Below are positions 3,574-31,485 of a stretch of 32,012 nucleotides of DNA, in pieces. The stretch covers positions 1 to 32,012 of the forward strand of contig JAKPGL010000177.1 in assembly GCA_029550925.1 (NCBI GenBank), read 5' to 3'. Under the pieces are notes generated by a model. It saw only the letters and a program-made list of their open reading frames with translations, was not told the origin of the DNA and made no database searches. This DNA is from Planctomycetota bacterium (GTDB taxonomy: Bacteria; Planctomycetota; Planctomycetia; Pirellulales; Thermoguttaceae). Both the position numbers and the translations under genes were made by a program. The first letter of the stretch is position 1. Each line of letters starts with the position of its first letter.

Positions 3574-3714
3574 CTGGAGTTTTGCAAAATGGGCTTGTTC
3601 AGGTGTTCGTACACTGAACAGGACCCTCAAAAATCCTGTGATTTTTAATCCTGTGATTTTTGAGGGTCGGTAGTGTACAAGATCGGTGGAAATCCCAAAT
3701 TTGCAAAACTCCAG
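3574..3714. mobile_element. MITE-like inverted-repeat element, copy 1 (141 bp)
   Basis: The ends are perfect 15-bp inverted repeats, CTGGAGTTTTGCAAA (3574-3588) and its complement (3700-3714). TAATAA lies immediately outside both ends (3568-3573 and 3715-3720), which looks like a target duplication, although this region is AT-rich. Inside are an arm pair GTACAC/GTGTAC and a central hairpin (CCCTCAAAAATC/GATTTTTGAGGG). A 15-nt unit, AATCCTGTGATTTTT, is duplicated in tandem at the centre. Apart from that duplication and a few substitutions the sequence matches 29000-29125. There is no room for a transposase. It lies between the two DUF1559 genes, 56 nt upstream of the second ATG. Confidence 0.8.
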
Positions 3715-12740: not shown

Positions 12741-12813
12741 GCGGCAGTAGCTCAGTTGGTAGAGCACCGGCTTCCCAAGCCGGTTGTCGAGGGTTCGAAT
12801 CCCTTCTGCCGCT
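12741..12813 (+). tRNA. tRNA-Gly (anticodon CCC)
   Basis: A complete 73-nt cloverleaf. The acceptor stem is GCGGCAG/CTGCCGC (perfect 7 bp) with discriminator T. The D arm is GCTC/GAGC, and the anticodon stem CCGGC/GCCGG carries loop TTCCCAA, so the anticodon is CCC, reading GGG. The T arm has the standard TTCGAAT loop. CCA is not encoded. Confidence 0.95.
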
Positions 12814-12837
12814 CTCGAAATTTCATCTCTTTAGAGC

Positions 12838-12919
12838 CTCTGACAAAATGACTGTCTCCCACCACCTTTCGAGGGGTAGGGAGGCCCACCAGCTTTTCCG
12901 AGAGTCCATTTTGTTAGAG
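12838..12919. repeat. Hairpin repeat, form A
   Basis: CTCTGACAAAATG (12838-12850) pairs with CATTTTGTTAGAG (12907-12919) at 12 of 13 positions, the odd one being G-T. A related, more diverged palindrome lies at 22570-22648. It starts 24 nt after tRNA-Gly. The 206-bp element at 12925 appears to be inserted beside or into its right arm. Confidence 0.45.
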
Positions 12920-12924
12920 ATTTT

Positions 12925-13130
12925 GCAACATTTTAGCCGAATGCAGTACTTTTTCATTTTTCATTCCCGCGAAAACGCCTAATCTAGGCTTCTTGCAGCC
13001 GCTGCTTGGGAGGAATAACAAAGTAGCCGCCCTCCTAGGACCCTGGATTGAGAGCTTTCGTGGGAATGACAATCCCGGGCAAATTTCACATCCTAAAATA
13101 AGCCGCCTTTGCATTCGGCTAAAATGTTAT
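12925..13130. mobile_element. MITE-like inverted-repeat element (206 bp) with 8-bp duplication
   Basis: AACATTTTAGCCGAATGCA (12927-12945) is repeated perfectly in inverse orientation at 13110-13128, 19 bp. A second, imperfect arm pair lies further in, based on TCATTCCCGCGAAA near 12961 and TTTCGTGGGAATGA near 13056-13069. GAGATTTT flanks the unit on both sides (12917-12924 and 13131-13138), which looks like an 8-bp target duplication. No coding capacity. It is unrelated to the 3574/29000 elements, so it is a second family; a further end lies at bases 1-18. Confidence 0.65.
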
Positions 13131-13593
13131 GAGATTTTTATTCTGTCTGGGGTAGGTTGACTCTTTTTGCCCTTTTCTTCTTTGTTGAGGCTATTGTTGG
13201 GATTGTGGGATGTAGGGATAGGCTTCCCTAGCTGAGCTGCTTTTCTGAAAACTATCCTCTAATGGGGGGGAAGGCTTTTATTTGTATAAGCCGAATAAAC
13301 AGGCCTTTTCTTTGTTTCAGCACTCGTTAAGGGTCTTCTTCTGGGGTAGAACCTCTCCGCTTAGTCGCTCCAGGAAACCGAAATCATCTGGAGATAAGAA
13401 ATCCGCCCCCTAGTTTGCTTCCCCTTTCCCCAAATGCGGGAGGATTTTAGGGTGGTAAAGGGGTTGCCGACGAGTAAAATTGGGGATATTGGTTAGCTTT
13501 TATCGACGCGACTTTTTTGGGGGTGGCCCAATTCCCCCGGCTTTCCGGCGTAAGATCGAGTTTCAAAGCCAACTTTCAAGGAAACCGCCCACG

Positions 13594-28999: not shown

Positions 29000-29125
29000 C
29001 TGGAGTTTTGCAAAATGGGCTTGTTCAGGTGTTCGTACACGGAACAGGTCCCTCAAAAATCCCGTGATTTTTGAGGGTCGGTAGTGTACAAGATCGGTGG
29101 AAATCCCAAATTGGCAAAACTCCAG
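29000..29125. mobile_element. MITE-like inverted-repeat element, copy 2 (126 bp)
   Basis: Same orientation as the element at 3574-3714 and identical to it apart from about five substitutions and the lack of the 15-nt central duplication. The ends begin CTGGAGTTTTGC and close with its complement (12 bp perfect, then one mismatch). CTTGTAA lies immediately outside both ends (28993-28999 and 29126-29132), a perfect 7-bp direct repeat that looks like a target duplication. The centre is a perfect 12-bp stem, CCCTCAAAAATC/GATTTTTGAGGG. Confidence 0.85.
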
Positions 29126-29601: not shown

Positions 29602-31485
29602 ATGGCTAGTCCAAACCAGCGGCAACCTCAAACGCCCCAAGCAGTTCCGGTATCCCCTCCGCAGTCAGGCGTCTCGGCTGGAACTCCTCAGGGGGGCGGG
29701 CAACCGATTCCCCAGGCGGTCCCAGTAGCTAGGGCCATCCCGGTAGGGCAATCTGGAGTGGTCCCTCCGGGGGGCACTCCGGTACCTCAAGCAATTCCTA
29801 TAGTAACCCCTATCGGGGGGCAACCCATCCATCCCGTCTATCCCCAGGCCCAACCGATCCCGACTTCCTTCCCCCAGGGCGCCTCCGTCCCCGGTAGGGT
29901 TGCCCAATCGCAACCGATCCCGGCCACCCAAGCCAGGGCCGCTCAGGGGGTCATGCCCAGACCTGTCCAGGCTGGCAAACCGGGCGCACAACCCGTAGGC
30001 GTTCGCCCCACCACGTCCGCTCCGCAACGGTCCCCCGAAGAAGAGGAACACCCTGAAGAAATCCTGGAGGTTGCGGTACGAAACGCTCCTCCCTGGCTGG
30101 TGAGTCTTTTGGTCCATATGGCGCTACTGATTATCTTGGGGCTTTGGCTATTGCCGCCGCTAGCGAAAAAGACCCTGACCCTTTTGGTCCCCCGAGAGCA
30201 ATGGGCCGAACACTTGGGCGAGCAATTGGAGTTCGATACCCCCCTGGGCGTGGAAAAGGCGGAGACCAAAGAAGAGCCGGTCATCACGCCTGATAACCTC
30301 GTCGAAGTGGAAGACCCCTTTGCCGCTCCGAGTATGTTGGACGCTATTCGGCCTGACGGACGCAGCGCCACGAGCGACGAAAAAGTGGATCATATTGGTT
30401 TGGCCTTGCACGGCCGGGAAGCCGGAATGAAAAAAGCTCTGGCGGGGCTTTATGGGGGGAATCGGCTTACTCAAGAGGCGGTGGATGCCGCGTTGGCTTG
30501 GTTGGCCCGTCAGCAGCGAAAAGACGGCTCGTGGAGTCTTCAAGGGCCTTATCGGGACGGAGCGACCCAGCAAGACAATCCCGAAGCGGCGACCGGCTTG
30601 GCCTTGTTGGCTTTTCAAGGCGACGGCAATACCCACCAAAAAGGACAATACAAGAAAAATGTTCAAGAGGGGATGGCCTGGCTTCTCAAGCAACAGGATG
30701 AGTCGGGCAATTTCTTCCACGAAGGCGCCCACAATCATACGTTCTATACCCAAGGCATCTGCACCATCGCCGTCTGTGAGCTGTACGCCATGACCAAGGA
30801 TGAAAAGCTCCGACAACCCGCCCAACGGGCCGTGCAATACTGCCTGGCCTCTCAAGCTCCGGAAGGCGGCTGGCGGTATCAGCCCGGCGTTGACAGCGAT
30901 ATCTCGGTAACCGGATGGGTGGTCATGGCCTTGCAGAGCGCCCGGATGGCCGGCATGGAAATACCGCCAGACCATTTTCGCCGGGTGGAACGTTTTTTGG
31001 ATCGCTCGGTCGCCCGCGATGGATTTCGCTATTGCTATCAGAAAGGCGTCGAACCTTCGTTGGCCATGACCGCCGAGGCCCTCCTGTGCCGACAATATCT
31101 CGGTTGGCCTAAAGACGAACCACGCATGATCGAAGCCCTGGACTGGATCACCCAAAAAGAAAATCTGATCAACTTTTCACCTGGCAAACGCAACGTCTAT
31201 TATTGGTATTACGCTACTCAGGTCTGCCACCACATGGACCGGACCAGTAAATACTGGAAGGCATGGAACGAGGTCATGCGAGAAGCGGTTCCCCGGGCGC
31301 AGGTCAAAAAAGGTCCCGAGGCGGGCAGTTGGAATCCCGATCCCCAGGATCCTTTTGACCCCCACGGCGGTCGGCTTTATGTAACTTGTTTGTGCATCTA
31401 CATGCTGGAGGTCTATTACCGGCATTTGCCGATCTACGCTCCGGTCTATACTCTGTTGGGCAAACCGAAGTATCAAGTTCCGTAA
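29602..31485 (+). CDS. Membrane-anchored prenyltransferase/squalene-cyclase-like repeat protein
   Basis: 627 residues with a strong ribosome-binding site. Residues 1-145 are a disordered Pro/Gln/Gly/Val-rich tail with repeats of the IPQAVPVARAIPVG and PQAIPI type. One transmembrane helix (about 164-186, PPWLVSLLVHMALLIILGLW) follows an acidic patch (SPEEEEHPEEILE). After a linker the C-terminal half (about 285-625) has alpha-alpha-barrel repeats of the terpenoid cyclase/prenyltransferase type: VDAALAWLARQQRKDGSWSL, VQEGMAWLLKQQDESGNF, AVQYCLASQAPEGGWRYQPG, then ISVTGWVVMALQSARMAG. The squalene-cyclase DxDD catalytic motif is not seen, so it is probably a non-catalytic or divergent relative; planctomycete genomes hold many. 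With the tail cytoplasmic, the repeat domain would face the periplasm. Function unknown. Confidence 0.85.
   Translation: MASPNQRQPQTPQAVPVSPPQSGVSAGTPQGGGQPIPQAVPVARAIPVGQSGVVPPGGTPVPQAIPIVTPIGGQPIHPVYPQAQPIPTSFPQGASVPGRVAQSQPIPATQARAAQGVMPRPVQAGKPGAQPVGVRPTTSAPQRSPEEEEHPEEILEVAVRNAPPWLVSLLVHMALLIILGLWLLPPLAKKTLTLLVPREQWAEHLGEQLEFDTPLGVEKAETKEEPVITPDNLVEVEDPFAAPSMLDAIRPDGRSATSDEKVDHIGLALHGREAGMKKALAGLYGGNRLTQEAVDAALAWLARQQRKDGSWSLQGPYRDGATQQDNPEAATGLALLAFQGDGNTHQKGQYKKNVQEGMAWLLKQQDESGNFFHEGAHNHTFYTQGICTIAVCELYAMTKDEKLRQPAQRAVQYCLASQAPEGGWRYQPGVDSDISVTGWVVMALQSARMAGMEIPPDHFRRVERFLDRSVARDGFRYCYQKGVEPSLAMTAEALLCRQYLGWPKDEPRMIEALDWITQKENLINFSPGKRNVYYWYYATQVCHHMDRTSKYWKAWNEVMREAVPRAQVKKGPEAGSWNPDPQDPFDPHGGRLYVTCLCIYMLEVYYRHLPIYAPVYTLLGKPKYQVP

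Follow-up and report, generated by a model that had tools for sequence, protein, structure and literature searches.

Ends that start with GTAA are characteristic of insertion sequences of the IS66 family, whose single-gene members constitute the ISBst12-like group and measure about 1.5 kb with the gene included. For IS66 elements, 8-bp duplications are documented (PMC3281130). The locus described here is alike in its GTAA-starting repeat, in its 8-bp duplication and in an end that it has in common with the IS66 gene of its genome, but it measures only 206 bp and is gene-less; it is real and abundant and, very probably, an IS66-type MITE. In the portions of the open-access literature on IS66 and MITEs covered here, no IS66-driven MITE, let alone one with more than 100 copies, is described. 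MITECca01 of Cardinium, an IS982-derived MITE with 169 copies (PMC9769881), resembles the present family in several respects: both are gene-less, have IS-type ends, exceed 100 copies, lie mainly between genes and sometimes in other mobile elements, and occur together with the parental IS. The likely parent is IS66 instead of IS982, however, and the interior is a REP dimer rather than the remnant of a deleted IS, and interiors are exchangeable. The CGTC-1 REPs have been characterized as repeats without a dedicated transposase and with merely fortuitous associations to transposase genes (Di Nocera et al. 2013, PMC3733652). The repeats considered here share their TGTC tag, 8-bp stem (ATTCCCGC/GCGGGAAT), 4-base loop, CCA tail and arrangement in inverted dimers, but the dimer sits inside an IS66-ended element, unlike in the published description; the REP dimers of H. 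neapolitanus inside 41-bp palindromes may be a parallel. Finally, REPINs, with their RAYTs, are similar in being non-autonomous and in having two REPs in inverse orientation around a conserved spacer; the present family differs in its DDE-type ends, in its 8-bp duplications, and in that no RAYT was detected in the genus.

The window, i.e. the whole stretch of 32,012 nucleotides that was analyzed, is one contig (C97) of a planctomycete-like 4.9-Mb draft genome of 233 contigs (G000). The repeat AACATTTTAGCCGAATGCA is found at 12927-12945 (+) and 13110-13128 (-), perfect over 19 bp in both places; shuffled sequences match it 0.01 times on average at ≤3 mismatches, and a chance occurrence is thus not expected. 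The terminal repeat of the family is 21 bp long (GTAACATTTYAGCCGAATGCA), and the outermost two bases of the window copy are GC on the left and AT on the right instead of GT/AC – its tips read GCAA and ATAA, while family ends start with GTAA. Because these outer bases have changed from the 21-bp family end, and because GAGATTTT is present at 12917-12924 and, as an exact match, at 13131-13138, the element extends over 206 bp from 12925 to 13130, with the left terminal inverted repeat GCAACATTTTAGCCGAATGCA at 12925-12945 (+) paired with the right one, TGCATTCGGCTAAAATGTTAT, at 13110-13130 (-). The earlier note on this DNA had proposed a 206-bp element with perfect 19-bp inverted repeats and an 8-bp duplication; both proposals hold, the family end being extended to 21 bp and the duplication being perfect on both sides. 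Most family copies measure 194-196 bp, and the window copy is a long variant owing its extra length to small insertions, chiefly 7 bases after the left end. Its identity to other copies is 86% or less. No ORF of ≥80 aa overlaps it; it is small and gene-less, as is characteristic of an IS66-family MITE.

As to the surroundings, the earlier note placed the element beyond a tRNA-Gly gene and beside another palindrome: tRNA-Gly(CCC) lies at 12741-12814, 110 bp upstream, and the arms of the adjoining palindrome (CTCTGACAAAATG / CATTTTGTTAGAG) at 12838-12850 / 12907-12919. The further family end said to open the window is real (CATTCGGCTGAAATGTTAC, 1-19, - strand). Since the window is a whole contig, this right-hand end marks a contig edge inside another copy; for the other half of that copy, no exact match to the presumed duplication GGGTTTTC was found. 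The elements named after CTGGAG do belong to a different family, with CTGGAGTTTTG..CAAAACTCCAG pairs of 141 bp (3574-3714) and 126 bp (29000-29125). Elsewhere in the genome, CAAAACTCCAG directly adjoins some IS66-type ends (the right end on contig C232, L163:8986-9181 and L003:1519), and the two families may sometimes insert beside or into each other. The window further encodes, at 29602-31485 (+), a protein of 627 aa in which a proline-rich N-terminal part precedes toroid repeats of the prenyltransferase / squalene-hopene-cyclase-like type.

The genome-wide search for the 19-bp end in inverted pairs, as suggested in the earlier note, yields 181 + 178 matches at ≤3 mismatches (reversed control: 2 + 0), and 72 pairs were recovered in the part of the genome examined. 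The 21-bp end is found 157 + 151 times (308 ends) at ≤2 mismatches, with 0 + 0 matches for the reversed control, which amounts to at least 150 MITE copies if ends are paired. About 740 kb were fully read, chiefly the largest contigs plus loci around matches; this sample contains 48 inverted pairs of 80-300 bp at ≤5 mismatches. Extrapolation gives about 300 copies genome-wide, old ones included, a rough figure because a few sample stretches were chosen for having matches. Only 6 of the 48 copies lie mostly within ORFs, which cover 78% of the sample (binomial P about 4e-22); selection acting once copies have inserted is the most likely reason for the intergenic bias.

Evidence for insertion comes from the flanks. 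The 8 bases adjacent to the ends are identical at 8/8 positions in 25 of the 72 pairs and at 7/8 in 9, as compared to 2 and 22, respectively, among 5112 random left-right pairings; exact duplications of 9 bp or more are absent from the 72 pairs. A comparison with empty sites had also been suggested, and one is provided by the family itself: a 201-bp copy on contig C149 (L146:3169-3369) is nested in a second member of the wider family and flanked left and right by GAAGCCGG. When the insert and one GAAGCCGG are removed, the host copy is in register with five out of six uninterrupted siblings, L143 being the exception owing to a small deletion at this site. Searching the genome for joined flanks gave this nested case alone. 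At the window locus, the genome G002 of the same genus has kept the order ppdK – tRNA-Gly – downstream gene, but the tRNA is separated from the next conserved sequence by about 350 bp, versus about 890 bp in the window genome, and no IS66-type end was found in its interval between tRNA-Gly and the next gene. The orthologous gap is too diverged to define a base-precise empty site. Conservation of the whole block in relatives, which the earlier note had named as the observation that would speak against it, is thus the opposite of what G002 presents – the genes are kept and the element is absent. Exact duplications and an empty site show transposition and, together with the inverted pairs, support the MITE-like reading.

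Which transposase moves these elements can be addressed with the Pfam profile PF03050, which detects three IS66 pieces in G000. Contig C224 has a perfect 21-bp end and, beginning 44 bp inside it, a 393-aa IS66 transposase frame that is still open where the contig stops. Contigs C149 and C123 carry an internally deleted piece and an N-terminal piece, respectively, of the same gene, each with an end nearby. A C-terminal IS66 piece on C232 is followed by a right end with 3 mismatches and then by unrelated flank. The left end of the IS66 gene is identical to that of the MITEs, and the right end is known only from a different, decayed copy with its 3 mismatches. Apart from the ends, the MITE and the C224 copy share nothing visible. 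The C149 copy (L146:1-640) lacks the codons of about residues 89-322 beside an intact end and is an intermediate between IS and MITE. A second IS66 relic, internally deleted, is present on C4; its left end GTAATTATTCAGCCAAGTGCAGAAG closely resembles the outer arms of some chimeric MITEs, e.g. L137:9112 and L157:5467. Complete relatives occur elsewhere: a 1507-bp element (L177, on a contig labelled Candidatus Binatia) with a 67% identical transposase, GTAACACGTTAGCC-type ends and the exact 8-bp duplication GGCTTCGC on both sides, and a 1541-bp element (L179, labelled Planctomycetota) with a 60% identical transposase and GTAACACTTCAGCC ends.

One could argue that the ends are those of some other transposase, not yet seen, and that the end beside the IS66 gene marks a MITE that happened to land there. 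The G000 draft assembly yielded no IS66 copy that is complete with both ends, and several IS families produce 8-bp duplications, both of which agree with this view. But no second MITE end intervenes in the 44 bp between the end and the C224 frame, the combination of end and IS66 sequence recurs at the C123 and C149 pieces, and the complete relatives use a similar end as their own terminus, one of them with an exact duplication; we consider an unseen transposase highly improbable. The presence of an IS66 gene with an identical 21-bp end, and of a complete relative with a similar end and an 8-bp duplication, leads us to classify the element as an IS66-type MITE. In line with this, family ends start with GTAA (GTAACATTTYAGCCGAATGCA), and 8-bp duplications are found in the window and in 25 of the 72 pairs. 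An intact IS66 copy presumably persists in the genome; in most other genomes having such ends, no close transposase was found.

The interior of the MITE is of special interest, most copies enclosing a pair of REP palindromes. In an alignment of 32 typical copies, column identity averages 84%, and their interior consists of two inverted units related to the palindrome GTCATTCCCGCGNAAGCGGGAATC, which flank a conserved spacer. In the window, alignment of these copies places the left unit, a degenerate CGTC-type REP palindrome (TTCATTCCCGCGAAAACGCCTAATC), at 12960-12984 (+), the conserved spacer module (TCTAGGCTTCTTGCAGCC...CCTGGATT) at 12983-13049 (+), and the right unit, likewise degenerate and in inverse orientation (GGATTGAGAGCTTTCGTGGGAATGAC), at 13045-13070 (-). 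The palindrome GTCATTCCCGCGNAAGCGGGAATC has 118 + 127 matches in the genome at ≤3 mismatches (control: 0). This genome consensus fits the description of CGTC-1 REPs – TGTC tag, 8-bp stem, 4-base loop, CCA tail, dimers – and the assignment to CGTC-1 refers to the consensus, the units of the window copy being degenerate. Neither the IS66-type mobiliser nor the REP-dimer interior could be revealed by the earlier reading of the sequence alone.

REPs and ends are closely associated in the 740-kb sample: 42 of 57 REPs are located ≤200 bp from an IS66-type end (2.7 expected under random placement), and 23 of the 57 are enclosed by a left end and a right end, against 0.5 expected. According to an nhmmer search, the spacer module is present in 32 copies in the sample, 24 of which have an IS66-type end on both sides. 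Dimers with different spacers also occur within the same ends (L134:2784, L143:1722, L155:2102, L167:9588, L158:4094). Two copies, L006:1328-1521 and L010:1499-1690, have their REP-spacer-REP module turned round with respect to the outer arms, as recombination between the inverted REPs might produce. In alignment columns 37-60 and 121-149, the REP blocks exist as ATTCCC/GGGAAT and ACTGCC/GGCAGT variants and as forms that no longer pair locally; these variants recombine among copies, some of them compensated within the hairpin, others not.

An inverted REP dimer is also what a REPIN-like element moved by a RAYT would contain, and the IS66-type ends could then be incidental; the REP dimers found without IS66-type ends elsewhere in G000 accord with such an origin. 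However, the Y1 transposase domain (PF01797) has 0 matches in G000 (97.5% complete), G001 and G002, although positive controls worked, and a RAYT was rejected as mobiliser. Moreover, the 8-bp duplications lie outside the 21-bp ends and do not adjoin the REPs, GTAG and RAYT features are absent, and in other genomes non-REP interiors move with the same ends. We regard a RAYT-driven origin as exceedingly improbable.

A different question is whether the element spread for a host function as a structured RNA or regulatory hairpin, e.g. as a terminator or processing site behind tRNA-Gly. As single-stranded DNA, the whole element folds better than shuffled sequences (z -4.8), and the strongly intergenic location given above would be compatible with such a role. 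But the terminal repeats account for most of this fold; z is -1.9 when the interior of the window copy is folded by itself. In the RNAalifold model of 32 copies, covariation contributes -0.19 of -24.56 kcal/mol, and a two-sided change of any kind is seen in just 5 of 44 pairs; for this lack of covariation, a functional RNA was rejected. Rfam gives the tRNA and no other family, promoter and terminator match counts are like those of shuffles, and exact duplications as well as the empty site show transposition. A host-selected RNA therefore appears very unlikely, and we retain the reading as an IS66-type MITE.

The same ends are not restricted to this genus. Among 396 genomes of the order, 17 (G000 included) possess the IS66-type end, and in eleven other genomes the ends surround other interiors. 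Elements of these genomes whose 8 flanking bases are duplicated at 6 to 8 positions – some pairs matching at just 6/8 may be false – have mostly unrelated interiors, many of them palindromic. Interiors from 12 genomes fall into 17 clusters; with one representative tested per cluster, 11 have a fold z < -2, as compared to 4 among 33 flanks of the same length (Mann-Whitney P = 0.001, the comparison being with flanks and not with MITEs of other IS families). The representative of the G000/G001 cluster is not palindromic by this measure (z 0.45). The palindromic interiors include REP dimers in the genus of the window and ACACGGATGAACACGGAT-like, GAGGAAACAGAG-like, AAATCCGAA-like and other sequences elsewhere. 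Repeats of the CCACGGATNNACACGGATGAACACGGAT kind are common between genes of many environmental bacteria. We observed them within IS66-type ends and 8-bp duplications at L190, L201, L205, L209, L210 and L212 (G131), L189 (G220) and L074 (G047), and an IS66-ended element may be part of their carrier.

What is more difficult to judge is how far this arrangement can be generalized. The present element is an IS66 'shell' with exchangeable palindromic cargo, and the cargo is its unusual side. We propose only tentatively – the odds being somewhat against it – that IS66-type ends form a general shell for intergenic palindromic repeats, and that IS66 transposases carry several orphan classes including CGTC REPs. 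G017 contains 160 REPs, one IS66-type end and Y1 genes; G034 and G131 contain IS66-type ends and no REPs. REPs must therefore also spread without the shell, which counts against a strict version of this proposal, and given the free REPs in both G000 and G017, the shell is one of their carriers rather than the sole route. A general role of IS66 as transposase of CGTC REPs was accordingly rejected, REPs and ends being independently distributed in other genera.

According to our model, the 21-bp ends would be recognized by an IS66-type DDE transposase whose gene lies at another place in the genome and which would move the gene-less element in trans; integration would duplicate 8 bp of the target. 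In this genus, the IS66 shell would have taken up an inverted pair of CGTC-type REPs, which then multiplied with it as passenger DNA. Decay of both the ends and the REP units makes it probable that the insertion in the window is old. Contigs of short-read assemblies seem to end within MITE copies, and the family would thus affect assembly and annotation of such genomes. CGTC REPs are an old repeat class for which no transposase is known. They are now located within an element whose ends can be identified and for which a candidate transposase gene is present; hence, how such repeats can be carried becomes directly testable in this genus.
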